From the IMG/VR virus record IMGVR_UViG_3300026253_000007, positions 1 through 25,825 of that record: a stretch of DNA of 25,825 nt. One strand, written 5' to 3'. Every line of letters begins with the position of its first letter. The first letter of the stretch is position 1. Of the stretch, positions 2 to 23,825 are shown in pieces. Under the pieces are notes generated by a model, which saw only the letters and a list, made by a program, of their open reading frames with translations, was not told where the DNA came from and did no database searches. Origin of the DNA: a virus. The position numbers and the translations under genes were made by a program.

Positions 2-3000
2 ACCATCAAGCGCATCGATGAAGAGTATGACCAAGCTACCGCTCCAGGGGTCCTGATTACCAAGAAGACCTCGCCGGCCTTGCAGCATGCGATTCTGGTG
101 AACAAGGAATCCCTGTTTGATTCCCGCTCGGACATTCTATCGCTCAAGCTTTCGGCGCTGGCTAAGCTGGCCCGCCATGATACGGCCCGCGTTACTCTGC
201 AGAAGGTCGGCGAAGGATCGTTGAACCTGAAGGGCTATGTGCCGGTTGACTATGAAGGCAAGGAGGTCGCGGCGGACAAGGCGGATGTGATTCGTACCGC
301 CCGCGCCAACATGAACATTGTCGGGGCCCGCTATGCCAAGCGCGGCTTCAGGACCCGCCAGGCGGCTGAGGACTTCATCAAACAGCACCCGTCGGTCTTT
401 GCCGATCTGTTCTGGCCGGATGCCGATGGCAAGCCGACTGATCAAATCATGGTGCATGAACTGGAACAGGAAGCCGGGGGCCGCTGGACGGTGCCGGGTG
501 ACCTGATCGAAGAAACCCGCATTCCGTCAGGGGCTTATGCTTCGCACGGCTTTGTGCGGCTGATGGACCCGGCTTCGAAAGGCTTCCGCAAAAACAATAT
601 CTCGATTACGCCGGAAGGGATCCGCATTGCCAAGGGCGAGGACTTCGATGGTGACAAAGGCTTTGCGCTGCTGTTCAACAAGGTGGTCGATACCCGCATC
701 CTGGATGGGCGCTATGTGATCGAGGTCGGAGCCAACGGTCGCAAGAAGCTGATCGATACCGGCAAGGGCCAGTACAATCTGGCACATGCGTTCTTTGATC
801 CGAGCCAGGCGCAGGAACCCGGCCGCGAACTGCTGGACACCTTCCTTGGTATTGGTCCGGCGGAAGAGGGCTACCTCGAATCCATGAACCGAGCCCTGAG
901 CCTCGACCACATGGCCTGGATCCATCCGAGTAATTATCACCTCTACAATGTCTACGGCGATATTCCCAAGGGGGCCTTTGACCAGGAGCTAGTCGATGAG
1001 TTGCGCATTCAGCACCCGCTGCTAAAGGAAATCAACCTGAGTACGCCGCGCGGCATTGCAGCGGTGACCAGTATTTACCGGGTTCGCGCTAAAGCAATCG
1101 GGGCGCTGGCTTCCAACAACTCGATGTATTCGCTACTGGCTTCGGCTGGGCAATCGCTGACCCTGAATCCAGAGATCGGCTTTTCCATTACGATCAAACC
1201 CAAGGCCGTCAAGGCCGTCCAGAAAGCCTATGCCGCCTTCCGGGTAGAAATCAAAACCCACCCATCGATCGCGGGTCATTACTTAGCCGAAATCTTCCTG
1301 CCGCTGGCCGGCAGTGAAGTACAGGGCATGCAGATACCCGAAGCCTTTGACTTCAAAGCCTATGGTCCGGTTAAGCGCCTGATTGATACGATGCTCAACA
1401 TTGCATTGGATGACGGCAAGGATCCGCGCCTGGCTTTCATGAACCTCAATGCTAACACCAGTGGCATCGCAACCATGTTGTTGATGGGTAACATCAAGGC
1501 CACTTCGATTCCGGCCAACAATGCCGAGATCAAACCTGGCAATCAGGCCTACGAGGAAGCGCTGCAGGTGCTTCAGTTCCTGAACAGCGAGAGCATGCTG
1601 AAATATGCCGAGCTCAAGGAGGACGATAAGGGTTTCCCGGCACCCCTGCTGCGGGAAATCAACAAGATAGACCCTGGAGGAGCGGCGGTTTTCATTACGG
1701 CGCTTGATATCGCACATGGCCGGATTCGCAGCATTGCAAAACTATTTGATGCAACCGACCGTTCGATCGACGGACTGACCGGCGTCATGAAGCTGATTGC
1801 AGCGCGGCTTGATCTTGAGACCGGCCTCAATGGGGTCTTCAATATTGAACAGATCAACCAGGCCTTTTCCTCCAAGGATGGCAAGAACTGGGGCAGCCCG
1901 ATCATGGAAGTGGCGGACGCGGTTTACCAGAAAGCGATGGAAGCCCTGCTGGATACCCCATATGGCCAGGTAATGCAGACGGTACTGACTGAGCAATTCG
2001 GTGATATGCAATTGGCCCTGACCGATGAGGCGGTGCGCAAGCAACTGACGAAGGCCGAACACGGCATGCGCAAGGGCATAGCAATCTCGGCCATTCGCGG
2101 CGAGCGAGTCACAGCTGACTATATCCGGGCACAGGTAGCACGGGTGATTGAAATGATCGGCAGTAGCGAGTTCAAGGAGAACCGCCTGATCAACCAGCTG
2201 ATAGTACGGCCCGCCAAAGGGAAGCGGCCGTCAGCCCCCAGCTTGTCGGTACTCTTTTCCAGCCGTGATCTGACGCAAGAGGACATCACACTGCGCCAAG
2301 AAGCCTTCGAATCGCTGAGTGAGACAGACCAGGAAGCGTTGGCGGTGGCGGCGTATGCCCTTTACGGTACCGGTACCTCCAACTGGAATGGTAGCTGGGC
2401 TGGCTTTATCTCAGACCGCTATTCCAAGAAACTCAATGGCCGCATGAAGATCGGCGTCCAAAGCATTGCCAGCTGGAATGAGTTCCAGCAAGTCAGCGAG
2501 GATCTGCTCAGCTTCAACCAGCAACCGGGTGCCAGCAAAGAAACGAAACCCGAAGCGACCGAGGAGCATGTGCTGCTTCCGGCCGGCAAACGCGAGAATG
2601 ACGTACACAGGATCGATGCCAAGACCGCACCCGCAGTTGAGACAAAAGGATGGGCAAGGCATTCCGAGAATGGCTACGAAGTATCGTCAAAAGGCGACAG
2701 ACGTTTCAGTGCCATGTACGCCAAGCTTTCCGATGGCCGCACTATCGAGCAAGCCTACCAGGAAGCCAAGGGGTCGGGTAAAGGACAGCCGGCCACCGCT
2801 CCGAATTTTGATTACTGGGGAACCTATCTTAATCTTTGGAAGCAATGGGCCAAAGAGAATCCCAAGCTCATTGAGATCCTCCGCAAGGAATCTGCAGGCA
2901 AGGTTCTCACCGATCGTTTTGCTAATACGGAAAACAATCAGGCCAGAGCACTTGCAACCATCCTCGAGATCGATGCCAAGACCGCACCCGCAGCGATACA

Positions 3001-6000
3001 GTATAAAGGGGGGTTCGACGGAGCAGGAAAAGGATCTCCCACGGGTGATGGAAAAGACAAAGCAATGCGGGCGGTTGCCGACTCCGCCATTGTTGAGCTT
3101 TCTTCCAGCTATCGAGCCTCTTCAAGCAAGACCACAAAGGAAGAGCTTGGTGATCCTGACGAGAATAGTCGAATCGTTATGTTGGCAAGAAATGGAACCC
3201 TTAACGGCAAGCCGCTTCGCGATGAAACGAAAGGGCTGATTAAGGATCTCGTAGAAAACCTGCCGCACATCGAGTTTATTACGGGCGATATGCCCAGCGT
3301 TGATACCGCCTTTATGGATTACCTTGATGAACTTGGAAAGGGCTATACGATTTATCACACAGGCCAGGACAGCCGTGTTAAGCGCGTAGTAAAGGGTGAC
3401 AGCCAGGCATCCCCGCAAAAAGCGCCTGAGAAGGCCGTGAAGAAGGCTTCACCGCAAGAGGCAATGAATATACTGCGTGAGCTGTCAGACGTTTCAGCGC
3501 ATTCCTACAAGGGTATTTCTTATGGACTCGATTCGGGCCTGAAAGACAAGGACGGCAATCCGGTCGCGGCCCGCTATTACCGCAAGACCAACAAGATGGC
3601 TTTGAATATTCCAGCCATTGCGCAGAAGTTTAACGAACAAGCCTGGACCAAGGCCCGCACCGAAGGCGTAACGCCGCTGCCGGTCGACACCTTCCAGACC
3701 ATTGGCCAATGGACCGCCTTTGTCCTGGAGCATGAGTATCAGCATTCGCTCAGCGAACGGCGCGAAGGCGAGACCGACGGCCAGTATGAAGACCGCATGA
3801 ACCAGGCGGCGCTCAAGAACCTCGGACTAGATAGCCAAATAACCTATAGCGTAGCATCGCTCGGCGCAGCCACTGTCAATATTAGCAAGGCCGGCCAAGC
3901 TACCGCGATGGAGGCAAAAGGGGAAAGCAAGCGTGAGATCTGGCATCAAACCGGATTCTGGCGCGGACACGAAAACAAGTGGCGCTTCGAGGTGGATGAC
4001 TATGGAATGCGGCTCAAGCTCAAGCGCGGCCAACAGCTGGGCGACCTGCTTGCCGGAAAATCAAGCAGTGATCCAGAGGTTCCGGGCACCGTGTTCCCGA
4101 AGCTGTCCGAGATTATTAAACATAAGAAGCTCTTTATCGCCTATCCGCAGCTCAAGGATATCGTTGTATATCCGATAGATTCGGAGCCGGACACCATGGG
4201 CCAGTGGAATCCAGTTGAAAACAAGATCGGCATCAATATCCACCTGGCCAACGGTCAGCCGGAACTGACTCTGATTCACGAAATACAGCACGCCATTCAG
4301 ACCATCGAAGGCATGAGTCCAGGTTCCAATCCGGACCACGAGGGAAAGCGAAGGAGAACGGCCGCAATCAGCTATGTGGACTTCATCGATGCTTATATTG
4401 AACTCATGGCCTTTAATGGCGAAGGGCTGCCCGCCGATCTAACCATCGGGGAGGTCGAAACAATCCGCCGCGAGGAACGCGACAGGCTGCCCGCAGATAT
4501 CCAGACCGCCTATGCCAAGCGCGTGAAGTATATCAAGAAGATTAGCAGCGTTAGCATTGGGAGCGAGTTTGCTCAAGTAGGGAAGTGGGCGTTTCGCGAC
4601 TATGTCATGAGTGAAGGCGAGATCGAGGCCCGCGTTACCTCCGCACGACTAAAGTTATCCGGACGGGATCGTCGTTTATTTGCTCCATGGGAAACCGAGG
4701 AAGAAATACTGCGCGAAGCCGGGCTGGTTAAGCCGGGGCAGACGGTGGAAGAGGCCTTGGGCAAATACAAATACGACCTCATGCCGCCGGTCACGAGCTT
4801 CTCGGCTCAGCTCCTGCCTGCCTTAGCATCGATTGAATCTGCTCAGTTGCCGCTTTTGACGCCTTCCTTGCGTCGTGCACTTGCCGGTTCGCAAACCTTG
4901 CCTGATGCCCTGCTCCAGCGCTTGATCAAATACGGTGCTAAGATACAGGGCGACGGTGATGCCGTTCATTACAGCACCATTTACGAAGCTTTGCGGGGCG
5001 AGGATCGCCGACAGCAGTCGTACCATCCGTTGCCTAAGCGTTCCGGCGAAGAGGGGCGGGCTGCCAAACGAACGGTGACCGAGGTGGGCAAAGCCCGGTT
5101 CAAGCTTCCGCAGCTGGCGGAGCTGCCAGGGGATGTGCAGACTTCGGTCGTCCTGAACCACAGCTTTATCAAGAAGCCGGTGCTGGATCTGATCAATGCC
5201 CAAAACTTTGCCGACGCTTCCGCTCAGCTGTTGCTCATAAAAGAAGACTGGGCAGATGCGCTGGCGGACAACTTGATCCAGCATGTGGCTTTGCGCGAAA
5301 CCGCTTCAGCCATGCAAAAGGATCAGGCCCCCTCGGTCTTCCTGAAGACCACCAGTACCCAGGGACTCAACCGGCTCGGCTTGTATGCCTACATTGCTGA
5401 AGCCGATCTCGACATACAGTTAACCGAGACCTCGGTTACGGTGCAGCAGCTGATGTCCGCTTCGGCAGCGGTGCAGTTCCGGGCTTTGAAGGAACTCGAT
5501 CAACACGGCAATCACCCGCTGACTTCGCAGGCTCGCAAATTGATCCGCATTACCAACGGGGTCCCGACCAAGCATGATTTGCAGACCGGATCCAAGATCG
5601 AAGCGCCCGAAGCCACCCAGATCAGTTACTCGGTAGCGCTGTTGCACGAGGTTGATCAAATCCCGCCAAACATCGGAACCGAAGCCATGCATCGCGAGCT
5701 CAAGTCCGCCAGCCGTGGCAGCCGCGATATCATTCATCAAGGCAACACCCGCAAGAACAAGTTGCTGCGAATGACCGCTGGTGCAAACTTTTACAGCGAG
5801 GATGGTGAAAAGAAGATCCGCACTACGTTGGCCGGCCGCAATGCCGGCAAGAAATTCCGGACCGTCTTGACCTACTTAGTCGAACTGTATCCGGACGGGG
5901 TCACCGATAGCAGCTGGCGATTCCAGCAGATTGCCACGCACCCCGATCACCTGATTAAGCTGTCGGAGCGCGCCAAGGACGGCAGTCGCTTTGCGTTCTC

Positions 6001-8476
6001 GGATGACGCCCCGACGCTCGGTCAGCTGGCCGATGAATATTCTAAATGGCAACGCGAAGCCAAGGCCGGCCACCTGTTCTCGGTGGCGAATATGAATGAG
6101 GCCATCTTGGCGACCCGCGAGCTGCTGAGCGAACAGCGCGAGGCGCTCAACCAGATGGCCTCCACCATTGACCCGGAATGGATCAAGGAGTGGACCGACA
6201 GCGGCTACATCTCGCATCATTATCCGAAGGAACAGCTCGAGCAGTTGTTCGGGACCCTGTCCGAGACCGCCCGCCAGGAAAAGAAACGCTCGTTCAAGAC
6301 CTATATCGAAGCTTCCTTGGTGTCAGGACTGGTACCCCAGAATCCGGATGCGGCCTGGATCTTGGAGCGCTATGTGCATGACACGGCCCGAGTCGCGCGG
6401 GACCGGGTTAGCACTTCCATGATGGCCCTAACCTTGGACGAAGACCTGATGCCAAACATGCTGTTTGAGGGCATGGAGGAACTGGGGATCATTACCGATA
6501 GCGTAGCTGGCAGGCTGGCAGACCATCTGGAGACAGCACTGGGTTATCTGGACCCTAAGTTCAGCTTTAAGACTAAGCGCGTTCAGAGCGGCTTTGCGCG
6601 ACTGAATGGCATGCTCGGTGAAATCAACCTGAAGGACTATGGCTACGTTCAGATCCCGACGGAGTACAAGAGTATCAAGACCGCCTGGGTTAAGGAAGGT
6701 ACTGCCCACGCACTGGCCAAGCATATCTTCGGTGATCAAAAGGAGTTCGAGCACAAGTGGGCGAAGAAAGCCTTCGACCGGGTACTGGCCTTCAACCACG
6801 CAACCAAGTCAGCGGCGATTTATATGTCGGCCTTTCACCCGATCGCGCTGGTCGAATCCTTCATTGCGATTGATGGCCTGGCCGGACTCGACGGTAAGGG
6901 CAACCTACTCCTGCATCCAATCCGGACCTACCGCGCGTTGCGCAAGGAATACCGCAATTCGATCATGGATCCGAAGTATGGCCAAGAGTGGGTCGGCGCG
7001 GGACTTAGCTACGATATCGGGCGGGCCCCGGATCTGGAATACGTCAAGGAACGCGAAGCGATGCTAAGGTTCTCGAGCCGGCTGATCAACAACGGCGGCC
7101 TGAGCCGGGCGATCGGCGTTCCGATGAAGGCCTTTGCCGGCTTCAAGCAACACACCGATGCCATCCTGTGGGAGAAGATGCTGCCGTCGATGAAGCTCTA
7201 CTCAGCCAACCGCCTGATGACCGCTGAACTAACTCGCGCGGCTGATGCCAACGAAGAAATCAACGAGAAGGAACTGCGCGAAAAGATCAGCGTCTATGTC
7301 AATGATGCCTTTGGCGGCCAGGAATGGGAGCAGTATGTCTGGGCTAATCCGCGCACCCGCAAGTGGTTGCACATGCTGTGGTTCGCACCGGACTGGACCC
7401 TGAGTGCCCTGAATATTTCGGGCCTGACCCATATGCCGGGCTTGAACAAGATTATCAAGTCACCCAAGAGCAAGCTGCATGCCCGCAATCGCATGGATCA
7501 ATACTGGCCGGCCTTTATGATGATCGTGCTGACGGCCATTCCGAACATGCTGCAGGCGACGTTCTATAGCCTGGCCAAGGCGCTCGGCGAGGACGACGAA
7601 GATGACAAGATGTTCTCCTTCCAGAACGAGATACACCATAAGTTCGAAATCGATATCTCGCCGATGATTCGCCTGATGAATCTGGAATACGGCAAGACCA
7701 AGAAGCGGCGGGTGTATATTCGCTTCGGCAAGCAGGCCTACGAAGTCTTCGATGGCTGGCTCGGTGGGCTGGAAGGCTTCCGCGATACGGCGCTCGGCAA
7801 GTCCTCGATTGCAATCAAGGTACTGCAGGAACAGATCTTTAATCAGGTCAAGCCCGGCTGGGATACACCGTGGGCTGACAAGGGTCTGATGGAATCGTTG
7901 TTTCAGGTGGAGGGCAAGCCGTGGGATGGACGCCTTGCCGCGATCGCCAAGAAGTTCATGCCGATGTCGATTACGCCGGTGCTTGATGAGCTCTCGACTC
8001 CCGGCAGCGGTCGGCCGTCAGCCTTCATTGCGCCAGCACGACTGGGCATGAGCCAATTCGCGGCCACGCACGAGGTTGCCAGCGTCATGCGGCTCTATGT
8101 CGAGGGCGGTATACGGGCCGAACTGAACGGCATTCCGAAGAAGCAGACCAACCTATGGAAGCTGGTGCGCGATATCACCCATGCGGCCGAGATCAACGGC
8201 TACGATCCGGAGAGGGTCTTTAGCGAAGGCCTGTCGAAGGCACGCGGCTTTTACTATTCGCAAATGTTCGAGGGGCTCGATAGACAGAACCACACCAAGA
8301 TGGCCAAGGCCGGCGAAGCGTTGTATCTGCTCGAAACGAAGTTCAAGAACCTTGAGAAATCGATGACCGGCCGTATGAGGACACAGGGCCAGAAGCGGCT
8401 GTATCGCGATCAGAAGTTTGACCTGAAGGATGCGTGGTACGAAGGGATGCGCCGTGCGGCCAAGGCCAAGCGTTAG
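2..8476 (+). CDS. Giant polyvalent phage protein with RNAP-like DFDGD motif, two zincin domains and LPD38-like C-terminus (5' partial)
   Basis: The frame is open from base 2, so the true start lies left of the window; at least 2824 residues are present. Residues below count from the TTG at 80. Residues 1-500 carry an RxP segment followed by GEDFDGDK (D188, D190, D192), the metal-binding signature of double-psi-beta-barrel RNA polymerases. Downstream are AKAIGALASNN and MNLNANTSG segments that I recall from the phage DFDID/DFDGD polymerase-like family. Residues 845-971 hold two IDAKTAPA repeats flanking a small module (RFSAMYAKLSDGRTIEQAYQ). A second module follows, with VMLARNG, GDMPSVD and TIYHTG, possibly SLOG/Rossmann-like. 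Two zincin-like motifs are HEYQH (1218-1222) and HEIQH (1400-1404), the latter with a later GEIEAR segment typical of polyvalent metallopeptidases. The last ~900 residues include FAPDWTLSALN and a hydrophobic stretch near 2476, resembling LPD38. The likely role is a virion protein injected with DNA; polymerase activity is inferred, not shown. Confidence 0.85.
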   Translation, partial: TIKRIDEEYDQATAPGVLITKKTSPALQHAILVNKESLFDSRSDILSLKLSALAKLARHDTARVTLQKVGEGSLNLKGYVPVDYEGKEVAADKADVIRTARANMNIVGARYAKRGFRTRQAAEDFIKQHPSVFADLFWPDADGKPTDQIMVHELEQEAGGRWTVPGDLIEETRIPSGAYASHGFVRLMDPASKGFRKNNISITPEGIRIAKGEDFDGDKGFALLFNKVVDTRILDGRYVIEVGANGRKKLIDTGKGQYNLAHAFFDPSQAQEPGRELLDTFLGIGPAEEGYLESMNRALSLDHMAWIHPSNYHLYNVYGDIPKGAFDQELVDELRIQHPLLKEINLSTPRGIAAVTSIYRVRAKAIGALASNNSMYSLLASAGQSLTLNPEIGFSITIKPKAVKAVQKAYAAFRVEIKTHPSIAGHYLAEIFLPLAGSEVQGMQIPEAFDFKAYGPVKRLIDTMLNIALDDGKDPRLAFMNLNANTSGIATMLLMGNIKATSIPANNAEIKPGNQAYEEALQVLQFLNSESMLKYAELKEDDKGFPAPLLREINKIDPGGAAVFITALDIAHGRIRSIAKLFDATDRSIDGLTGVMKLIAARLDLETGLNGVFNIEQINQAFSSKDGKNWGSPIMEVADAVYQKAMEALLDTPYGQVMQTVLTEQFGDMQLALTDEAVRKQLTKAEHGMRKGIAISAIRGERVTADYIRAQVARVIEMIGSSEFKENRLINQLIVRPAKGKRPSAPSLSVLFSSRDLTQEDITLRQEAFESLSETDQEALAVAAYALYGTGTSNWNGSWAGFISDRYSKKLNGRMKIGVQSIASWNEFQQVSEDLLSFNQQPGASKETKPEATEEHVLLPAGKRENDVHRIDAKTAPAVETKGWARHSENGYEVSSKGDRRFSAMYAKLSDGRTIEQAYQEAKGSGKGQPATAPNFDYWGTYLNLWKQWAKENPKLIEILRKESAGKVLTDRFANTENNQARALATILEIDAKTAPAAIQYKGGFDGAGKGSPTGDGKDKAMRAVADSAIVELSSSYRASSSKTTKEELGDPDENSRIVMLARNGTLNGKPLRDETKGLIKDLVENLPHIEFITGDMPSVDTAFMDYLDELGKGYTIYHTGQDSRVKRVVKGDSQASPQKAPEKAVKKASPQEAMNILRELSDVSAHSYKGISYGLDSGLKDKDGNPVAARYYRKTNKMALNIPAIAQKFNEQAWTKARTEGVTPLPVDTFQTIGQWTAFVLEHEYQHSLSERREGETDGQYEDRMNQAALKNLGLDSQITYSVASLGAATVNISKAGQATAMEAKGESKREIWHQTGFWRGHENKWRFEVDDYGMRLKLKRGQQLGDLLAGKSSSDPEVPGTVFPKLSEIIKHKKLFIAYPQLKDIVVYPIDSEPDTMGQWNPVENKIGINIHLANGQPELTLIHEIQHAIQTIEGMSPGSNPDHEGKRRRTAAISYVDFIDAYIELMAFNGEGLPADLTIGEVETIRREERDRLPADIQTAYAKRVKYIKKISSVSIGSEFAQVGKWAFRDYVMSEGEIEARVTSARLKLSGRDRRLFAPWETEEEILREAGLVKPGQTVEEALGKYKYDLMPPVTSFSAQLLPALASIESAQLPLLTPSLRRALAGSQTLPDALLQRLIKYGAKIQGDGDAVHYSTIYEALRGEDRRQQSYHPLPKRSGEEGRAAKRTVTEVGKARFKLPQLAELPGDVQTSVVLNHSFIKKPVLDLINAQNFADASAQLLLIKEDWADALADNLIQHVALRETASAMQKDQAPSVFLKTTSTQGLNRLGLYAYIAEADLDIQLTETSVTVQQLMSASAAVQFRALKELDQHGNHPLTSQARKLIRITNGVPTKHDLQTGSKIEAPEATQISYSVALLHEVDQIPPNIGTEAMHRELKSASRGSRDIIHQGNTRKNKLLRMTAGANFYSEDGEKKIRTTLAGRNAGKKFRTVLTYLVELYPDGVTDSSWRFQQIATHPDHLIKLSERAKDGSRFAFSDDAPTLGQLADEYSKWQREAKAGHLFSVANMNEAILATRELLSEQREALNQMASTIDPEWIKEWTDSGYISHHYPKEQLEQLFGTLSETARQEKKRSFKTYIEASLVSGLVPQNPDAAWILERYVHDTARVARDRVSTSMMALTLDEDLMPNMLFEGMEELGIITDSVAGRLADHLETALGYLDPKFSFKTKRVQSGFARLNGMLGEINLKDYGYVQIPTEYKSIKTAWVKEGTAHALAKHIFGDQKEFEHKWAKKAFDRVLAFNHATKSAAIYMSAFHPIALVESFIAIDGLAGLDGKGNLLLHPIRTYRALRKEYRNSIMDPKYGQEWVGAGLSYDIGRAPDLEYVKEREAMLRFSSRLINNGGLSRAIGVPMKAFAGFKQHTDAILWEKMLPSMKLYSANRLMTAELTRAADANEEINEKELREKISVYVNDAFGGQEWEQYVWANPRTRKWLHMLWFAPDWTLSALNISGLTHMPGLNKIIKSPKSKLHARNRMDQYWPAFMMIVLTAIPNMLQATFYSLAKALGEDDEDDKMFSFQNEIHHKFEIDISPMIRLMNLEYGKTKKRRVYIRFGKQAYEVFDGWLGGLEGFRDTALGKSSIAIKVLQEQIFNQVKPGWDTPWADKGLMESLFQVEGKPWDGRLAAIAKKFMPMSITPVLDELSTPGSGRPSAFIAPARLGMSQFAATHEVASVMRLYVEGGIRAELNGIPKKQTNLWKLVRDITHAAEINGYDPERVFSEGLSKARGFYYSQMFEGLDRQNHTKMAKAGEALYLLETKFKNLEKSMTGRMRTQGQKRLYRDQKFDLKDAWYEGMRRAAKAKR
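2611..2993 (+). repeat. 26-bp exact direct repeat bounding a module inside the megaprotein gene
   Basis: The 26 bases at 2611-2636 recur exactly at 2968-2993, 357 bp (119 codons) downstream and in the same frame. Both encode IDAKTAPA. They bracket one compact module (residues 853-963); a second unrelated module follows the second copy. This looks like a linker duplicated when a domain cassette was gained by recombination. By eye, the DNA from about 2640 to 3400 is more AT-rich than its flanks, which fits acquired modules. Confidence 0.9.
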
Positions 8477-8484
8477 GTCGGGGT

Positions 8485-8514
8485 AAAAAAAAGGAAGGGC
8501 CCGAAGGCCCCTCC
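8485..8514 (-). terminator. Rho-independent terminator of the leftward gene block
   Basis: Arms GGAAGGGCC (8493-8501) and GGCCCCTCC (8506-8514) enclose a 4-base loop. Read leftwards, the hairpin has a TTCG tetraloop and one G-U pair, and runs straight into eight T (8485-8492). It lies just after the stop at 8520 of the last leftward gene. Read rightwards it follows the megaprotein stop and has a short T-run (TGCTTTT), so it may work in both directions where the two units converge. Confidence 0.85.
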
Positions 8515-8519
8515 TGCTT

Positions 8520-8999
8520 TTACTTCTTGGTCAGTCCTATCTTGCGGCACAGGGCTTGGCTGATATAGGCGGTGCGCTCCTCGGCTTCCTCGAAGTGTCC
8601 TTTCAGTAGCTCGGGCGGTTCCAGGAAATAAACCGTGCCGGTCGGTACACCGGGCTGGCCGTCTTCGGTTTCTACCAAGGCGATCTTGGTATCCCCCAGC
8701 CGCTTGATGCAATCAACGCACCAACCAATGCCGCTCTTGACTGGTTCACCCGGCTTGAGCTCAAGCATAGTGAATGACTCCGTATCCTGCGCACAGCTGT
8801 TGCATTTATAGATACCTTGCTCGCTCTTCTCGGGTTCGCCGTAATGCACAAAGCCGCAAGCTGGGCAGATATACTTATAGTTCTGCATCCCCATTGGCAC
8901 CATGCCGAGCGTGTATTCCGTATTGCAAATACCGCAAAGTTCCAAGGCCTTGCGTAGGTTAATGCCCAGTTTCGGATGCGGTGGTATTTCTTCAGCCAT
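8520..8999 (-). CDS. Zinc-ribbon protein with four CxxC motifs, unknown function
   Basis: A 159-residue protein. I chose the ATG at 8999 because GGGGAG stands seven bases upstream; a longer reading from 9068 lacks such a site. It carries CGIC and CPAC in the N-terminal half, then CNSC and CVDC, enough for two zinc ribbons. The C-terminal third is basic and ends in KK. This is the last gene of the leftward block, directly before the terminator. Zinc ribbons in phage proteins often bind nucleic acid or RNA polymerase, but no specific family is recognised, so a DNA/RNA-binding or regulatory role is only a guess. Confidence 0.8.
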   Translation of the reverse strand: MAEEIPPHPKLGINLRKALELCGICNTEYTLGMVPMGMQNYKYICPACGFVHYGEPEKSEQGIYKCNSCAQDTESFTMLELKPGEPVKSGIGWCVDCIKRLGDTKIALVETEDGQPGVPTGTVYFLEPPELLKGHFEEAEERTAYISQALCRKIGLTKK

Positions 9000-9100
9000 T
9001 GTGTTCTCCCCATAGCCAGCCATGTAGCGTTTCGCAGGTTCGTTCAAACCATCTGAGCCGCATGGCAATGATGTTGATTGATGCCGTCCATTCCATGGAA

Positions 9101-9481
9101 CTATTTCGAAGCATCGGGATCATAGTGCAGCTCCCAGTTTTGATTGTATTCGCGCTCGGTAACCTCGATCAGCTCATAGCCGTGCCGCCGGTTATCGGCC
9201 AGTCCATCAATCATACGTCGTGCTGTGCTCCGGTTGACGCCCATCTTGTCGGCCGCCATGCGGAGTGACGCATAATAGATGACCCGCTTCAGCCGCAAGC
9301 CAATCGATTTGCAGCGACGGTAACTGTGCACCCGCATCTGCGGGCGATCATAGCGCTTGACCTTGGCCAGACTCACTTCGCCGTTCTTGCCCATCACCAG
9401 ATGGCGGCAATCGATGCACAGCTTACCGGGATGCAGCATCAGCGTTTTAGCTCCGCAGCTTGAACATAGTAGATTGGGCAT
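9101..9481 (-). CDS. Small zinc-ribbon plus helix-turn-helix protein, probable DNA-binding regulator
   Basis: A 126-residue protein. The ATG at 9481 is preferred because GAGG lies five bases upstream; an ATG at 9502 would add seven residues without an obvious site. Near the N-terminus CSSC and CIDC form a zinc ribbon. Around residues 75-100 the segment LRMAADKMGVNRSTARRMID has the pattern of a helix-turn-helix, as in resolvase or sigma-like recognition helices. The middle is very basic (RRCKSIGLRLKR). It follows a PD-(D/E)XK-like gene with one base between stop and start. A transcriptional regulator or DNA-binding accessory protein is the best guess; no exact family is identified. Confidence 0.8.
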   Translation of the reverse strand: MPNLLCSSCGAKTLMLHPGKLCIDCRHLVMGKNGEVSLAKVKRYDRPQMRVHSYRRCKSIGLRLKRVIYYASLRMAADKMGVNRSTARRMIDGLADNRRHGYELIEVTEREYNQNWELHYDPDASK

Positions 9482-9482
9482 C

Positions 9483-9884
9483 TTATCCTCGCTCCGTAAC
9501 AATTAATTCACCATCCGGGCCGATACTAAAATCAGCTACCCGAGGTTTCCATCTCATTGCTTTGCCGTACCCGCCGCCTTGCAACTTGAGCTTGCATCTT
9601 CGCCAGCCCCAGAGTTCTAGCGGGGCATGCTTGATCCATTCGTAGACCGCTTCATTGCGCTCTTCCGTCAGCTTCTTGACATGCCCGCTGAAATCCTGCC
9701 CACAGGACTGGATAGCAACGATGCCCTCCTCCGGGTCGATGGCAATGATGTCGATAAAACCAAACAGGTCCTGCCGAATCCCAAACTTGCCGCCATACTG
9801 CTGAAACTTTTCCACGATGCCGCAGGTGCGACCCTGCTCCCGCATCGCTTTCAAGGTACGTTGTGTTGGACTTAATCCTGCCAT
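9483..9884 (-). CDS. PD-(D/E)XK nuclease-like protein
   Basis: A 133-residue protein. The ATG at 9884 shares its A with the TAA stop of the upstream gene, with AGGA eight bases ahead, so translation is probably coupled; an ATG at 9941 is less likely. Residues 12-60 read as a compact alpha/beta core: VEKF, then RQDLFGFIDIIAID (D39, D45), then EEGIVAIQSCG. That order matches a widespread phage family with a restriction-endonuclease-like fold. In it the usual E/D-x-K of the second strand is often Q-x-x; here it is Q59, with no lysine two residues later. Catalysis may therefore be altered or lost. It could be a Holliday-junction or VRR-NUC-type nuclease helping recombination. Confidence 0.75.
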   Translation of the reverse strand: MAGLSPTQRTLKAMREQGRTCGIVEKFQQYGGKFGIRQDLFGFIDIIAIDPEEGIVAIQSCGQDFSGHVKKLTEERNEAVYEWIKHAPLELWGWRRCKLKLQGGGYGKAMRWKPRVADFSIGPDGELIVTERG

Positions 9885-10213
9885 TATCTTTTTCCTTTCT
9901 TCTTTTTCGGCGGTTCCCAAGGCTGACTGCAGGTCGGACACCGAATCGTCTGGCCTTCCTCGCTGACGTGCTCGGGGATACCTTTAACCGGTTGCCCGTA
10001 GTATTCCTTAACGACCTGCCGCACTTGTTTCAGTACCTCCGGGCACTGGTATTGCAGGATTGTCATCACACTGCCCAGGACGTGCCTCTCCCAGGCCGCC
10101 GACGGCATAACGCTCTTCATACCCATCAGGTCGGTAAAGCGCGAACAGAGCCCCTCGTAGGAGGCCAAGGTCGTATCCGAGCTGGTTAAGGGTTGTTTCT
10201 TTTTTCGTCCCAT
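9884..10213 (-). CDS. Small basic protein with one CxxC, unknown
   Basis: A 109-residue protein starting at ATG 10213, directly after the TAG of the upstream gene (TAGATG), with GAGG five bases ahead. The N-terminus (GRKKKQP) and C-terminus (PPKKKKGKR) are strongly basic. A single CPTC sits near residue 93, which is half a zinc site, so a metal site would need a dimer or other ligands. The middle is helical and mentions no recognised motif. Tight coupling to the PD-(D/E)XK-like gene downstream suggests joint expression. Function unknown. Confidence 0.75.
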   Translation of the reverse strand: MGRKKKQPLTSSDTTLASYEGLCSRFTDLMGMKSVMPSAAWERHVLGSVMTILQYQCPEVLKQVRQVVKEYYGQPVKGIPEHVSEEGQTIRCPTCSQPWEPPKKKKGKR

Positions 10214-10687
10214 CTAAGCCTCAACCAGTTCGACGGCTTCATCTTTGCGCATAATGCCAATCACTTCGGCAATGGTCAGCGCCAGGATGGCTACCAGATC
10301 GGCTTGCTCCTCCTCTGGTGCACACGGTAGCGCCGGCATTTCCTTGTAGACTTCGACCGAACGACCTTCCGAGGTGATCAGGGTCATATCTGACTCAATC
10401 GAACCCCGGATCCGCCAGCGCAGGATGCTATTAACGGCATGCACCGTCTCGTGCAACAGCGCTCGCTTAAAGGTACATGGATCCGATTCGTTGTTGAGGA
10501 AGACATGCACCGCCGGCTCAGTCGTGGAAACGGTTAGCCCAGCCAGCTTCGAGCTGTCCGAGAATTGCGCTAACGTCTGACTGGTTCGGGGGTCGGTGGT
10601 AGACACACTTTTTAAGAGCTCCTCGCCCGTTGCCGCTAAATGGACATAGACCGAGGGCGAGTTTTTGATCTGCAACTTCGCATGCAT
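10214..10687 (-). CDS. Small HExxH metallopeptidase-like protein
   Basis: A 157-residue protein with ATG at 10687 and AAAGGA upstream. The motif LLHETVHAV places H79, E80 and H83 in a zincin HExxH helix, and an acidic EEEQ segment near residue 128 could give the third zinc ligand, as in minimal gluzincins. No signal peptide or membrane segment is visible, so it would act in the cytoplasm. The target is unknown; phage proteins of this kind are often called putative metallopeptidases without tested activity. The first 170 bases overlap the end of the upstream gene in another frame. Confidence 0.75.
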   Translation of the reverse strand: MHAKLQIKNSPSVYVHLAATGEELLKSVSTTDPRTSQTLAQFSDSSKLAGLTVSTTEPAVHVFLNNESDPCTFKRALLHETVHAVNSILRWRIRGSIESDMTLITSEGRSVEVYKEMPALPCAPEEEQADLVAILALTIAEVIGIMRKDEAVELVEA

Positions 10688-11021
10688 TATGATTTTTCCT
10701 TTCGTTGTTGATAAACTCTGGGTTCCGCGAAGGAACCACCGAGCGTCGTTTGGCCAGATAGGCGGGATAACCAGCGGCGATCAAGCAGTCATGAATGATC
10801 GTTTCCGAAATGCACGGGTCCATGAGTTCCTGACTGAATCGCTTCAGCGCGTCCTTCATAAACTTCGGGCTCTTCTTATCGGTATCGCTGTAAAAATCCC
10901 ACCACACGATGGCAATGGTTTTATCTCTGGTTGCGGGGCATTTGATCGGGGCCAGCAGTTCCTTCCACTTCTTGCTGCTGCGTTGCTTCAGTTTCGAAAG
11001 GATGCTTGGTTTTTGGCCCAT
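10518..11021 (-). CDS. Unknown phage protein with a long 3' overlap into the next gene
   Basis: A 167-residue reading starting at ATG 11021, one base after the TGA of the helicase gene, with GGAG nine bases upstream. The first ~100 residues look like a real protein (KKWKELLAPIKCPATRDKTIAIVWWDFYSD, later GYPAYLAKRRS) and are rich in aromatics. The last ~56 residues are read across the whole 5' end of the metallopeptidase gene in another frame and look less protein-like. A small hairpin (10721-10737, GGTTCC arms) lies just before that overlap. The natural stop may have been lost. No family recognised. Confidence 0.65.
   Translation of the reverse strand: MGQKPSILSKLKQRSSKKWKELLAPIKCPATRDKTIAIVWWDFYSDTDKKSPKFMKDALKRFSQELMDPCISETIIHDCLIAAGYPAYLAKRRSVVPSRNPEFINNERKNHNACEVADQKLALGLCPFSGNGRGALKKCVYHRPPNQSDVSAILGQLEAGWANRFHD
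10721..10737 (-). other. Short hairpin near the start of the overlapping metallopeptidase gene
   Basis: Arms GGTTCC (10721-10726) and GGAACC (10732-10737) with a five-base loop, six perfect pairs. No T-run follows on either strand. It lies 34 bases upstream of the ATG at 10687, where an intergenic mRNA hairpin would be expected if the upstream gene ended near residue 95. Confidence 0.4.
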
Positions 11022-11022
11022 C

Positions 11023-12399
11023 TCATTTGGCTCCGGTTTGCAGTTTCTTTTTGTACTTCTCGAATTCTAGGAACGAGAGGAATTTATTGTACGGCTTATG
11101 AAACTGCATATGGATATCGCCGGTGCACCCGCCCCGGTTGGCCGCAATGCGTATCGTGCATTGTTCGACTCCCGGATGCATCCAAGAAGGCATGCTGTCT
11201 ATCTTGGTCGTCGGGGGTCCGATAAACATGATGATGTAAGCATCCTGCTCAATCGCCCCCGAATCCTTCAGGTCATGCATCTGCGGCATCGGTGCTGGCT
11301 GTCCCGCTGTTTCAAAGCTCTTCGGTGGCCGCGAAATCTGCGACAGCAACAACACCGCTACCCCGGTCTCCTTGGCCACGATCCGAATCTGGTTGGTCAT
11401 ATGCTGAATCTCGTAGGTCCGACTCTGAAACTTGGCATTCAGCGACGACGATATGATCTGCAGATAATCGATAATGACAAACCGCACGCCCTTTTCGGTG
11501 GAATACTCGCGGATCTTGGCACAGATTTGCTCCACCGTTTGACCGGGATGATCTTCGACAAACAGCGGAGCGCGGCTAATGGTTGCCGGCCCCTCCATCA
11601 CGAAGGTTTCAATCTCCTCCGCCGACATTTGCCCCAGCTTGAGGCGCATGTTATCGGTTTCGGTGATATCGGCTCCGGCCTTTTCCAACAACTCGTCCTC
11701 GTCCATCTCCAAGGAGAAGAATGCGGTCGGTACCTTGTTGACCAACGCGGTATAGACCGCCTCGTTCAGGGCCAGCGTGGACTTGCCCATCTTAGGCCGT
11801 GCGCCGAGTACCGTAATCTTGCCGAATGGATAGCCTGCCGTGTTGCTTTGGATCTGGTTCCAGCGCGATTCGATGCCGGAGCAGCCCTTGTGGCGAATGT
11901 TGCAATACCGATGCACCATCAGCTTGAGCCGCTCCTTCTTTGACAGCATGTTGCGCTTGGATCGCCCAAATTTAGCCAGTGAGTGCTTAACTGACGCCAA
12001 GGTGCTCTCTAACTCATCTCCAGAGTCAATGGCCAGTACGGCGTCATGCAGTAGCTCCTTGGCCATGCGCTTGGTATGCTTCTCCATCACCGTTGCAATA
12101 TGCAGCGGCAGATTCTTCGGCGTGGTCGCAATGGTCATCGACGCAAAGACGGTCGCGGAAGCCGCTTCCGTATCAATGTGACGGCCGTCCCGCTCAATAC
12201 CTTCAATGATGGAAGCCGCATCGACTTCGTGTCCTTTGGCAAACAAGACCTCGGCCATTTCCCAAATGGTTTTCGAGGTGCTGTGTTCTAAGTGCTTCGA
12301 TTCCAACCCAGTATCCAGAGCCATCCGGCGGGTGTGTGGGTAGTCTTTAACTAAACATCCGATAATGAATTTTTCGGAAGTGATTGAGAATTCGGTCAA
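11023..12399 (-). CDS. dnaB: DnaB-like replicative DNA helicase
   Basis: A 458-residue protein, about the normal length for the family. Residues 1-110 match the DnaB N-terminal primase-interaction domain (IIGCLVKDYP, IWEMAEVLFAKGHEVD). The RecA-like core follows: Walker A GARPKMGKST near residue 200, the SLEMDEDEL strand-helix, Walker B VIIDYLQIISS, and LLLSQISRPP and DLKDSGAIEQDA segments typical of DnaB. It would unwind the fork as a hexamer in the cytoplasm. The start is TTG at 12399, with AGGGGAG six bases upstream; no ATG is better placed. A strong hairpin/T-run sits only 21 bases upstream. Later leftward genes follow within a few bases. Confidence 0.95.
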   Translation of the reverse strand: MTEFSITSEKFIIGCLVKDYPHTRRMALDTGLESKHLEHSTSKTIWEMAEVLFAKGHEVDAASIIEGIERDGRHIDTEAASATVFASMTIATTPKNLPLHIATVMEKHTKRMAKELLHDAVLAIDSGDELESTLASVKHSLAKFGRSKRNMLSKKERLKLMVHRYCNIRHKGCSGIESRWNQIQSNTAGYPFGKITVLGARPKMGKSTLALNEAVYTALVNKVPTAFFSLEMDEDELLEKAGADITETDNMRLKLGQMSAEEIETFVMEGPATISRAPLFVEDHPGQTVEQICAKIREYSTEKGVRFVIIDYLQIISSSLNAKFQSRTYEIQHMTNQIRIVAKETGVAVLLLSQISRPPKSFETAGQPAPMPQMHDLKDSGAIEQDAYIIMFIGPPTTKIDSMPSWMHPGVEQCTIRIAANRGGCTGDIHMQFHKPYNKFLSFLEFEKYKKKLQTGAK

Positions 12400-12420
12400 T
12401 TTCTTCTCCCCTTTCGTTGT

Positions 12421-12463
12421 AAAAAAAAACGGTAGTCGAGTATGTCAAACATACCCGGCCACC
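12421..12463 (-). terminator. Strong terminator-like hairpin just upstream of the helicase gene
   Basis: Arms 12431-12445 (GGTAGTCGAGTATGT) and 12449-12463 (ACATACCCGGCCACC) pair over 15 positions with one mismatch and a three-base loop. Read leftwards it is followed by one G and nine T (12421-12429). It follows the Sak-like gene (stop at 12503) and leaves only 21 bases before the helicase TTG, which includes the ribosome binding site. A separate promoter cannot fit in that space, so it should reduce, not abolish, helicase expression. Confidence 0.85.
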
Positions 12464-12502
12464 ATTCCGGTTATTAGCGTTCGCCTATGGGGCTAGCTTA
12501 TA

Positions 12503-13246
12503 TCAATTCAACTCCTTGCCTGCAAGAAAATCTTTGACAGAGTAGTCAGATCCTTTCAATTGGAGCTGGTGATAGGTCTTCAGCAGCTTGCGCCGATCCT
12601 GCATGGTCCACGAGCGATGATCGCCGGCTTGTCGTTCCAGATCCCACACTTCCACCCCCAGTTTATCAAAGGCGGCAATGATAGCATTGAATTGGACCTC
12701 GCTCAGCTTGACGTTGTCCGACAAGTCGGGTTCCGGTGCCCTGACCGATACTGCTTCTGGTTCCTCCCGCACTACTGCTTCCGGTGCCGTTTTGACCGGG
12801 GCATTTCCCGGCTCCGATTTCTTGGGTTCCGGCGGACGCGGCGTTGCTTCAGGCTTTTCCGGCAAATCCTCACCGGCATAGATGTAAGCACCCAGTCCGA
12901 ACATCATCATGTTCTTCACCAGACAACGCATCATGGTCTTGTTGATATCGAAGGTGGTCGGCTTCTTGATTGACTGGTTGCGGAAGTCCATCACGGGCAA
13001 CCACATTTCATGCGTCTCTTCACCGACGGTTATTTCGGTGTAGCACATCCAGCCGGTTTCGACATCGCCGAAGCAGGGCAACCCGCTTTCAGGATTCTTT
13101 TGGATCCGGTAGCTGGCGCTCGGGCAGTTCTTCTTGAAGGTATCCCAAGCCCAGGCCCAGCTGAGGTAGGACAGGCCGTTCTTCTGTTCCACATGATCGT
13201 TTACGTCGATCTGGGACAGGCGGTCATAGAGGGGTATCTGTTCCAT
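12503..13246 (-). CDS. Sak/DUF1071-like single-strand annealing protein
   Basis: A 247-residue protein with ATG at 13246 and AAGGAG seven bases upstream. Residues 20-125 carry the marks of the DUF1071 (Sak-type, Rad52-related) annealing proteins of phages: NGLSYLSWAWAWDTFKK, MCYTEITV, WLPVMDFRNQSI, and DINKTMMRCLVKNMMMFGLGAYIYAGEDLP. A proline/acid-rich linker (about 130-175) joins this core to a C-terminal helical tail. The protein would coat and pair complementary single strands in phage recombination and replication repair. It lies next to the helicase and two genes from the Cas4-like nuclease, a plausible nuclease-annealase pair. Confidence 0.88.
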   Translation of the reverse strand: MEQIPLYDRLSQIDVNDHVEQKNGLSYLSWAWAWDTFKKNCPSASYRIQKNPESGLPCFGDVETGWMCYTEITVGEETHEMWLPVMDFRNQSIKKPTTFDINKTMMRCLVKNMMMFGLGAYIYAGEDLPEKPEATPRPPEPKKSEPGNAPVKTAPEAVVREEPEAVSVRAPEPDLSDNVKLSEVQFNAIIAAFDKLGVEVWDLERQAGDHRSWTMQDRRKLLKTYHQLQLKGSDYSVKDFLAGKELN

Positions 13247-13520
13247 TTGCTATCTCCTTTTTTAGCTCTTGCAAGAGCCGTTCTTTTAATGATGCATAGA
13301 TTGCCTTTGGGCGGGTCTCTATGAATTCACGTCGCAGTCGGTGCCGCGCCTCCAGTTCGAAGGCGTTCAACAGCACCCACGCTTCGTTGCGTTGGTCTTT
13401 GTCGATGTGGGTGACTTTGTTTAACAGCAGCTTAGCCTGACTGAGGTATACGATATCCTCAGCCAGGTCCAAAGCCTCGGCCGCCACCGTCTCAACATAC
13501 AGCAGCCGATTGTCTCCCAT
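13224..13520 (-). CDS. Small helical protein, unknown
   Basis: A 98-residue protein with ATG at 13520 and GGAG seven bases upstream. Its last 23 bases overlap the start of the Sak-like gene, which carries the latter's ribosome binding site, so the two are probably coupled. The sequence is almost all helix (VAAEALDLAEDIVYLSQAKLLLNK, RLLQELKKEI) with heptad-like spacing, suggesting a coiled coil or helical bundle. No cysteine pairs or catalytic motif. Position suggests an accessory to the annealing protein; no family recognised. Confidence 0.75.
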   Translation of the reverse strand: MGDNRLLYVETVAAEALDLAEDIVYLSQAKLLLNKVTHIDKDQRNEAWVLLNAFELEARHRLRREFIETRPKAIYASLKERLLQELKKEIANGTDTPL

Positions 13521-13522
13521 GG

Positions 13523-13945
13523 TTATTCTCCGGGGAAACCGTCGTCTGAGTTCGTTGCTACAGCCGGTACCAGCTCGTCAATCACTTCTGCCAGCCAGCC
13601 AACTATGGCAATCGCTTCCTTGCTAGAGATACCGGGCCCGACTTGGTTGTTGTCGATCGATACCTGAAAGGCATTGGTCTCTAGCTTGTGAGCAATGACA
13701 CGGTCCGATTTGTCGAACTTAACTTCGGTAACCGGTGCGCGATCGGCACCTTTCACCTTTTCATTATACATGCCGTCGATGATGCGCTTCTGGCTGATCG
13801 AAAGCTCCGGGCGCTGCTCGATCGGAGAGGAAGGACGTTCAGCATTTGGGTCGCCAAACATGAAGCCTTTTTCCCAATCGTTCAGCTGGTCCTCGTGCTG
13901 TTTGATTTCTTCAATCTTACTGAGGTAATCTTGTTCAATGGCCAT
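13523..13945 (-). CDS. Unknown phage replication-block protein
   Basis: A 140-residue protein with ATG at 13945 and AAGGAG seven bases upstream; two bases separate it from the next gene. The N-terminal half (HEDQLNDWEKGFMFG, then LSISQKRIIDGMYNEKV) has a pattern I have seen in small phage proteins beside annealing or single-strand-binding genes. The C-terminal half holds GPGISSKEAIAIVGWLAEVIDEL and an acidic tail (DDGFPGE), reminiscent of acidic tails on single-strand-binding proteins, but no OB fold can be assigned. Function unknown; a DNA-metabolism accessory is likely from position. Confidence 0.75.
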   Translation of the reverse strand: MAIEQDYLSKIEEIKQHEDQLNDWEKGFMFGDPNAERPSSPIEQRPELSISQKRIIDGMYNEKVKGADRAPVTEVKFDKSDRVIAHKLETNAFQVSIDNNQVGPGISSKEAIAIVGWLAEVIDELVPAVATNSDDGFPGE

Positions 13946-14047
13946 TACTAATCTCCTTTGGTTTTTGTTTTAAGATCCGGTAGGCGACGTTAGCGCCGTC
14001 CTTGCCGGAATAGATTTTATTGAATTGTAATTCTTAGCAAACCTCCT
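13935..14047 (-). other. Orphan ribosome binding site and start-less small reading frame
   Basis: A perfect AGGAGG (14042-14047) overlaps the end of the Cas4-like gene, but no ATG, GTG or TTG follows at a workable distance in any frame. At six bases, where ATG is expected, stands AAG (14033-14035). A protein-like frame of 32 codons runs from 14033 to a TGA at 13935-13937 inside the next gene (FNKIYSGKDGANVAYRILKQ). It looks like a small gene whose start has mutated, been shifted out of frame, or is non-standard. Confidence 0.45.
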
Positions 14048-14981
14048 AGAAGGCTGGCTTGATCGTTTCCCGAAATTGGCTGCAGAAGGGCGCGGCCTTA
14101 CAATAGCCCCGCTCACAGCGCCGGCTCTCGCCCCGACGGTATTCGATTTCCAATTCATCCTGATCCTTGCGACCAGCCATAAAGATTAGTGCTTCGGATC
14201 GGTTGCGAAACGACGTGGCTCGTGGTAACGCCTTCTTGTATCCACTCACACCAACCTTGCCGTTGGTTTTCACCACCGCCCAACGATCCGGATCAGCCCA
14301 ACGCTCATCCTCTGAGCATAAAGGCAGGTCATCATCTTCGAGTTCCTCGCACTCGGCAAAGAGCCGGATGCGTTCCTCTAGAAATTCCTTGGTCTTGGCA
14401 GTGCTCCACATGGCCACCGGAATCACCGCACACTGCGCGGCTGGATAGCCGTGTTCCCGCAACGATTCGGTAAAGCGCCAGTCCCGCGCAATCACTTCCA
14501 GCTTAATCGCCGTCACCTGAATGTTGGCCAGGTGCAAGAGATAGGCATAGATGTTGAGTTGCTTGGTCCATTCTTTTTTGACGTTGCCGTTCAAGGCACT
14601 CTTGAGCGCATAAACCGACGTGACCTTAAAGTCGCGCAGGGTCCAGGTGCCCGGTATATCCTCGTTCGGCAATAGCAGGTCCGGCTTAAAGCTGATCTGC
14701 TTCCCATTGACTTCCTCGATGAACCGTTGCTCGGCAATGGCTTTCGGACTCGCGTTGCGTTCGGCGATTAAATGCGCCATGTTGCCAAAGAAGATCCACA
14801 GCAAATCCGATACATCTTCGATGATCTCATCACTGTGTCGTTCGGTTAATAGTTTGGCACGGGGCGAGTCAATCAGGGTGGTGACGGACTTCCAGCCGAC
14901 CTTGTCATACTCGCTGGCAAAGCCAACGATGGCATCATACAGCGAGCTTGACAGACCTGTCTTGTTAGTATACTTACACAT
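14046..14981 (-). CDS. Cas4/RecB-like PD-(D/E)XK nuclease with probable Fe-S cysteines
   Basis: A 311-residue protein with ATG at 14981 and AAGGAG eight bases upstream. The RecB-type nuclease motifs appear in order: GNMAH (H70), FKPD (D101), LRDFKV (D117, K119) and QLNIY (Q141, Y145). The C-terminus has C289, C294 and C300, and C2 is the second residue; one N-terminal plus three C-terminal cysteines is the Cas4/AddB pattern for a 4Fe-4S cluster. It would trim DNA ends to give single strands. No CRISPR genes are nearby, so the link is to the Sak-like annealing protein and helicase downstream. Nuclease identity is strong; the cluster is inferred. Confidence 0.9.
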   Translation of the reverse strand: MCKYTNKTGLSSSLYDAIVGFASEYDKVGWKSVTTLIDSPRAKLLTERHSDEIIEDVSDLLWIFFGNMAHLIAERNASPKAIAEQRFIEEVNGKQISFKPDLLLPNEDIPGTWTLRDFKVTSVYALKSALNGNVKKEWTKQLNIYAYLLHLANIQVTAIKLEVIARDWRFTESLREHGYPAAQCAVIPVAMWSTAKTKEFLEERIRLFAECEELEDDDLPLCSEDERWADPDRWAVVKTNGKVGVSGYKKALPRATSFRNRSEALIFMAGRKDQDELEIEYRRGESRRCERGYCKAAPFCSQFRETIKPAF

Positions 14982-15018
14982 CTAAACATCTCCTTTCGAT
15001 GTTTGCGTTTGGTTATAG

Positions 15019-15048
15019 TCCTGTCTCGGGTTGGTCTCCGAGACAGGA
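15019..15048. other. Stable 11-bp hairpin between nuclease and VWA genes
   Basis: Arms TCCTGTCTCGG (15019-15029) and CCGAGACAGGA (15038-15048) pair perfectly with an eight-base loop. Read rightwards it is followed by ATTGTTTTATC, a weak terminator tail; read leftwards, the expected direction here, there is no T-run. It is more likely an mRNA-end, processing or stabilising element after the VWA gene than a strong leftward terminator. Confidence 0.7.
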
Positions 15049-15085
15049 TTGTTTTATCTCTACTCCTCGGCTCGGGCTTTGGCAA

Positions 15086-23718: not shown

Positions 23719-23769
23719 AAAAAAAAACGGAGCGCCTTCGGCTTTAGGTAAAGCCTGATTGCTAGCGCT
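23719..23769 (-). terminator. Leftward terminator with nested stems
   Basis: Read leftwards, an outer stem (GCGCT 23765-23769 region with AGCGC 23731-23735) encloses a six-pair inner stem (AAAGCC 23750-23755 with GGCTTT 23740-23745), then CCG and nine T (23719-23727). It ends the transcript of the gene at 23865-24161. The tail, G followed by nine T then AC, is the same as at the terminator before the helicase gene. Confidence 0.75.
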
Positions 23770-23825
23770 TCTCGATCGCTCTCAGTGTAAAGCCCGATTG
23801 CTAGCGCTTCTTGATCGCTCGCAGT
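23748..23825. repeat. Tandem 39-bp direct repeat, two copies
   Basis: Copies at 23748-23786 and 23787-23825 agree at 36 of 39 positions, abutting with no gap. Each holds the palindromes GCTAGC and, in the first, CGATCG, and an AGCG/CGCT pair able to form a small hairpin. The first copy supplies part of the terminator stem. They lie in the 3' untranslated part of the gene at 23865. Confidence 0.85.

Follow-up and report, generated by a model that had tools for sequence, protein, structure and literature searches.

Two-barrel RNA polymerases are central to ideas on the origin of the cellular RNA polymerases. To our knowledge, two-barrel polymerases of the virion occur in few phage groups only, namely the crAss-like phages, the P23-45-like phages and the jumbo phages. 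The crAss-like virion RNA polymerase (vRNAP), represented by gp66 of Cellulophaga phage phi14:2 and gp50 of crAss001, is a single-chain two-barrel enzyme that resides in the virion and serves the early genes (PMC7886860; PMC10172136). In P23-45, gp96 is a vRNAP fused to the tape measure together with a metallopeptidase domain (PMC10770324). The N4 vRNAP of the Schitoviridae likewise unites a polymerase and a zincin/metallopeptidase in a giant injected polypeptide, in keeping with the concept of polyvalent proteins (PMC5512222), and two proteins of crAssphage ZA are annotated as 'RNAP catalytic subunit fused' and 'RNAP associated protein fused to zincin protease' (QAU03811, QAU03812). The concept of a vRNAP/zincin fusion is already known. 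How, then, does a megaprotein that carries an RNA-polymerase-like DFDGD motif in an unclassified bacterial virus compare with these systems?

The window analyzed here is a stretch of 25,825 bases that constitutes the complete IMG/VR record IMGVR_UViG_3300026253_000007. The megaprotein coding sequence (2..8476, plus strand; 2,824 codons) has an open 5' end, cut off at the left edge of the record, so that the N-terminal part is indeed absent, as the initial annotation had stated. Because the DFDGD motif is found at residues 214–218 here and at residue 1979 in a 3,553-residue relative, roughly 1,700–1,800 N-terminal residues are estimated to lie outside the record, and these would include the second, lysine-bearing double-psi-beta-barrel (DPBB-B). 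We propose, with a probability of about 0.88, that the coding sequence in the window specifies the C-terminal part of a megaprotein of the virion, and that this protein includes a DNA-dependent RNA polymerase of the crAss-like virion type, with two barrels in a single chain. On this reading of the sequence, the barrel with DFDGD (DPBB-A) and the bridge/trigger region would fall within the window, and DPBB-B beyond the contig end.

All of the motifs named in the initial annotation for the polymerase region are present, and the features of the megaprotein given below lie on the plus strand. The DPBB-A-like catalytic region (134..691, residues 45–230) is delimited by homology to three other contigs and to the crAss vRNAPs. 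It includes ARVTLQKVG (185..211), the counterpart of PRVMMQKIS in the relatives and of the AxQVS segment in the crAss vRNAPs, and further on the RxP segment ETRIPSGAYASHG (512..550), which contains RIP (518–526) and an SH that are both invariant and which aligns to GYRIPTEG..S of the crAss enzymes. The sequence KGEDFDGDK (632–658) follows, in which DFDGD (641..655) aligns with the crAss DFD[IV]D and is predicted to form the Mg2+-binding aspartate triad. Downstream of the barrel, AIGALASNN (1094..1120) corresponds to GKLIGI.AN.NTF of the crAss vRNAPs and would represent the bridge-helix region, and LNIALDDGKDPRLAFMNLNANTSG (1394..1465), which ends in the NANTSG block (~1448–1465), aligns with VDAVKDPV...N.NT.T, within the broader pattern VDAVKD.VL...N.NT.T.DA. 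No other segment of the window matches a crAss hidden Markov model (HMM) as well as LNIALDDGKDPRLAFMNLNANTSG. Both correspondences agree with the initial annotation, which had likened the AIGALASNN and NANTSG segments to phage DFDID/DFDGD proteins. The double-psi fold of this region is predicted from these sequence comparisons; two AlphaFold2 models built with only 3–4 sequences had mean pLDDT values of 40 and 37, too low to bear on the fold. As a separate observation, the insert between the DPBB-A parts (302–460, residues ~101–153), which is among the better-predicted stretches in both models, showed a recurrent weak match in the PDB to ribosomal protein eL20 (E 0.003–0.08), a resemblance that is probably due to chance.

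From its composition, the 2..8476 reading frame is expected to contain DFDGD by chance 0.0013 times. Across large collections, GEDFDGD arises by chance in many unrelated reading frames, and a contig scan for GEDFDGDxG returned 24 matches, all of them chance occurrences in unrelated reading frames. The motif alone is therefore weak proof, and its conservation is the real test. Scans recovered relatives on three IMG/VR contigs, G001 (43 kb, L003), G002 (35 kb, L002) and G003 (33 kb, L082/L086), which around the motif share ~50% identity with one another and ~30–35% with the window. The elements E[ST]RIP, SH, RL, N.S..P, K and EDFDGD.G are invariant in all four related sequences. The relatives also carry the downstream AVD/N.NT block.

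The four-sequence family profile was compared with a crAss profile built from twelve diverse phi14:2 gp66 homologues aligned with gp66. The two profiles matched with P = 8e-10 and a probability of 96.5%, collinear over ~825 columns at ~15% identity, with RIP placed on RIPT, DFDGD on DFD[IV]D and the candidate active-site lysine of the relatives aligned with that of crAss within ~1 residue. The match persisted when DFDGD was masked (P 2e-8) and was found in each half separately (2e-5 for the N-terminal part with the DPBB-B half, 4e-7 for the C-terminal part with the DPBB-A half). When ten crAss sequences were aligned independently, P was 6e-9, and leaving out in turn each family member, or each of four crAss sequences tested, gave values from 2e-9 to 4e-7. 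By comparison, the reversed family profile gave 0.63, the best of 20 column shuffles 0.12, and unrelated profiles, taken from further proteins of crAss or of the family contigs, 0.018 to 0.8. Removal of the window worsened P from 8e-10 to 4e-7, which indicates that the window carries a signal of its own; since the window by itself is weak (hhalign P 0.011), the assignment to the crAss type rests on the family. The RNA-polymerase reading of DFDGD put forward in the initial annotation thus finds its support in profile homology to the crAss-like virion two-barrel polymerases.

Searches in both directions gave further matches. Built from crAss sequences alone, an HMM detected the G001 megaprotein within its own 43-kb contig at E 1.5e-5. 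An HMM of the same kind, run on 486 sequences, gave the first four ranks to G1, G2, the window and a duplicate of the window (L001), in that order; the window was not picked up at the first pass of the genome search with the crAss profile. In the reverse search, the family profile located crAss-like phage cr53_1 inside its RNA polymerase gene (E 0.00125), the only hit among 13 crAss-type records, with none in three controls. An HMM ranking of the DPBB-A core against DFDGD-bearing decoys gave no separation. No relevant match was obtained by tblastn with the window region and two relatives' regions against phages, or with the window region against plasmids; searches of PDB sequences gave chance-level matches only, and residues 1–533 yielded nothing relevant in Pfam and PHROGs. 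It was also observed that the RNA polymerase genes of the crAss-like phages in L093, L099 and L101 contain 8, 9 and 14 in-frame TAG codons, respectively, in the portions covered, in line with the TAG reassignment described earlier (PMC7886860).

A two-barrel enzyme would require a partner for the DFDGD barrel, and the absence of a lysine-bearing barrel upstream is what the initial annotation had said would count against its reading. In two-barrel polymerases this barrel is marked by a DG.G...K segment. Inspection of the relatives, which extend further upstream than the window, reveals a candidate DGQ...KG in all three: HGN[YF].SYK....D..KR..Q..TPG lies ~490 residues before DFDGD, DGQ[GA] followed by M/F-S lies ~450 residues before it, and KG follows ~47 residues further on, with LDGQA replacing DGQG in G003. 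The upstream DGQ...KG region is thus a candidate for DPBB-B, as expected for such an enzyme, and the motif order in the family reads HGN..YK...KR...TPG, DGQ, KG, RIP, DFDGD, G..ASN and AVD. An HMM of the upstream segment, from which DFDGD is excluded, scored highest on a YonO homologue at DGQGLIS, on a second YonO-like reading frame and on phi14:2 gp66. The second of these, a decoy in that run, was matched outside its DG.G. The gp66 match fell at FTLNSILAS...FTGDPANYKNMVDFFKR, at a similar distance from the aspartates, and it is this match that provided crAss-like phages as a lead. In G001 (L070, minus strand, 5531–6475 and 6610–16236) the megaprotein is split into frames of 314 and 3,208 residues, compared with the single 3,553-residue frame of G003, which may reflect a real break, a sequencing error or an insertion.

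Downstream of the polymerase region, the chain has the makings of a polyvalent protein. A region matching PHROG 9995, of unknown function (2651..2968, E 2.6e-31), is followed by a first zincin-type HExxH motif, HEYQH (3731..3745), by the large polyvalent protein associated domain LPD23 (3845..4000, Pfam E 8e-13) and by a second HExxH, HEIQH (4277..4291), inside a weak match to the DUF6782 metallopeptidase. Zincin domains had been claimed for this chain in the initial annotation, and the two motifs agree with this; both are absent from the three relatives. Polyvalent (injected) proteins in the sense of Iyer et al. 2017 are recognized by several disparate enzymatic domains and LPD domains within one phage chain, and the window chain combines the RNA polymerase region, two HExxH motifs and LPD23. 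The LPD38-like tail proposed at the same time was not recovered, as a Pfam search at E ≤ 1 returned no LPD38; the C-terminal ~700 residues are homologous to the tails of the relatives' megaproteins (6266..8287, 28% identity over 695 residues, E 2e-55).

Descent from a two-barrel RNA polymerase need not mean that the protein still is one, and the barrels could now serve the ejection apparatus in binding DNA or in a structural role. The strong divergence from the crAss vRNAPs in the profile alignment, the LDGQA of G003 where DGQG would be expected and the extra zincin-type motifs joined in the window chain are all compatible with such a loss. We nevertheless consider it unlikely, as the three aspartates, RIP and the KG lysine of the relatives have been kept in surroundings of only ~30–50% identity. 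Moreover, when the 3,553-residue G003 protein is compared with G001 and G002, the RIP and DFDGD blocks rank among the most conserved 20-residue stretches of ~3,500 residues, and a dead enzyme should lose such blocks first.

A two-barrel polymerase akin to YonO or to the Thermus P23-45 enzymes is somewhat less likely again. YonO of SPbeta and its relatives are single-chain two-barrel RNA polymerases with DG.G, KG, R.P and D.DGD motifs; DG.G...K can be seen in YonO relatives as well as in gp64 and gp96 of P23-45. Local resemblances are the DGQGLIS of a YonO homologue and, in gp64, GADYDGDIGY and an AVD segment. P23-45 gp96 is moreover a virion megaprotein fusion with a metallopeptidase and a DFDGD motif (PMC10770324). 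Against crAss at 8e-10, however, the family profile reached only a nominal P of 0.005 with YonO, in the wrong register and with DFDGD unaligned, and this match was rejected. The comparison with gp96/gp64 gave P 0.007 with DFDGD in register, short of significance with profiles this shallow. The architectures differ as well, since YonO and its relatives are stand-alone proteins of ~840–940 residues, and the gp96 polymerase is N-terminal on a siphovirus tape measure, whereas no tape measure was recognized here. Least probable, and very much so, is a chance DFDGD in an unrelated structural protein: despite the many unrelated reading frames with GEDFDGD and the uncertainty of the predicted fold, such a coincidence would hardly produce a collinear match of ~825 columns that persists with the motif masked.

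Other phage megaproteins came to notice during this comparison. Those in L028 (3242–13279, plus strand), L045 (3–6230, minus strand), L018 and L043 are incomplete, measure 2,000–3,300 residues or more and contain RFPAT...LLQGEDFDGDLNGYF. Their group profile gave P 2e-4 over 440 columns with YonO relatives and P 0.07 with crAss, and the L028/L045 group is possibly an unrecognized megaprotein-fused polymerase of the YonO type. An incomplete reading frame of 1,670 residues in L085 (2–5011, plus strand) contains NRDP...MYADFDGDIGYLL and has no obvious kinship to the crAss-type or YonO-like megaprotein families.

The polymerase of crAss type proposed above resembles the crAss vRNAPs in a two-barrel, single-chain architecture, as judged by the order of the family's motifs (GD/GN..YK..D..KR, D[AG]Q, K, RIP, DFD.D, N.NT) and in its location within a very long late or virion reading frame. 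It differs in having DFDGD where crAss has DFD[IV]D, in the low aligned identity, in the two HExxH motifs of the window chain and in a genomic background that shows no detectable similarity to the crAss capsid, portal or terminase. In crAssphage ZA the two annotated functions lie in two adjacent genes, whereas the catalytic core and the zincin motifs share one chain in the window. The N4 enzyme, in turn, has a T7-type fold, and the T7-type RNA_pol domain of Pfam (PF00940) had no match in the window megaprotein; a search of all four records was empty, in a run whose control was also without a match. Three things are new here: the lineage of the phages, the DFDGD form of the motif and a single chain in which a crAss-type core is joined to two HExxH motifs.

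In G001–G003 the megaprotein is the last gene of the late block, directly after the structural genes. The block holds, one after the other, putative terminase, portal, scaffold, capsid and tail genes, named from size and order without database matches, and 3–4 further proteins, so that the position of the megaprotein would resemble that of podovirus ejection proteins. The window itself has no capsid, portal or terminase genes. On the strand opposite to the megaprotein it encodes functions in replication and recombination, namely a DnaB helicase, a Sak-like annealing protein, an exonuclease and an ATPase; the helicase and one further gene are shared with G001. Two tandem copies of a 39-nt repeat, 92% identical to each other, were noted in the small-gene region (23748–23825); a search of early-region repeats for promoter candidates gave nothing convincing.

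The capsid, portal and terminase candidates of G001–G003 had no confident match in Pfam or PHROG and no significant similarity to their crAss counterparts (major capsid protein P 0.13, portal 0.015, C-terminal part of the large terminase 0.59). The internal crAss controls gave 8e-7 for the portal and only 0.0036 for the capsid, so weak a value that remote capsid kinship could escape detection. Comparison with isolates found none that is close. Sequence evidence of this kind suggests that a phage lineage outside the recognized Crassvirales probably has a crAss-type vRNAP as part of a megaprotein that is ejected. A bolder version, to which we give about even odds, is that a deep, unrecognized lineage with capsid and packaging genes unrelated to those of Crassvirales uses a crAss-type vRNAP within one ejected polypeptide, to which the window lineage adds two protease-like motifs.

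We infer the following course of infection. The megaprotein would be made late and packaged into the head, the last in a series of internal or ejection proteins. It would then be forced into the host cell before or together with the DNA and refold. The three aspartates would hold Mg2+, and early genes would be transcribed independently of the host RNA polymerase. The attached zincin-type domains would probably cut a host protein or the megaprotein itself during entry. If this is true, a single molecule would deliver both host-independent early transcription and cleavage of host protein, and these phages are predicted to begin infection without the host RNA polymerase. The glycine of DFDGD is as in the cellular enzymes and may help to trace the divergence of two-barrel enzymes. 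The occurrence of a crAss-type enzyme in phages whose structural genes are unrecognizable suggests a polymerase of greater age or mobility than the Crassvirales.
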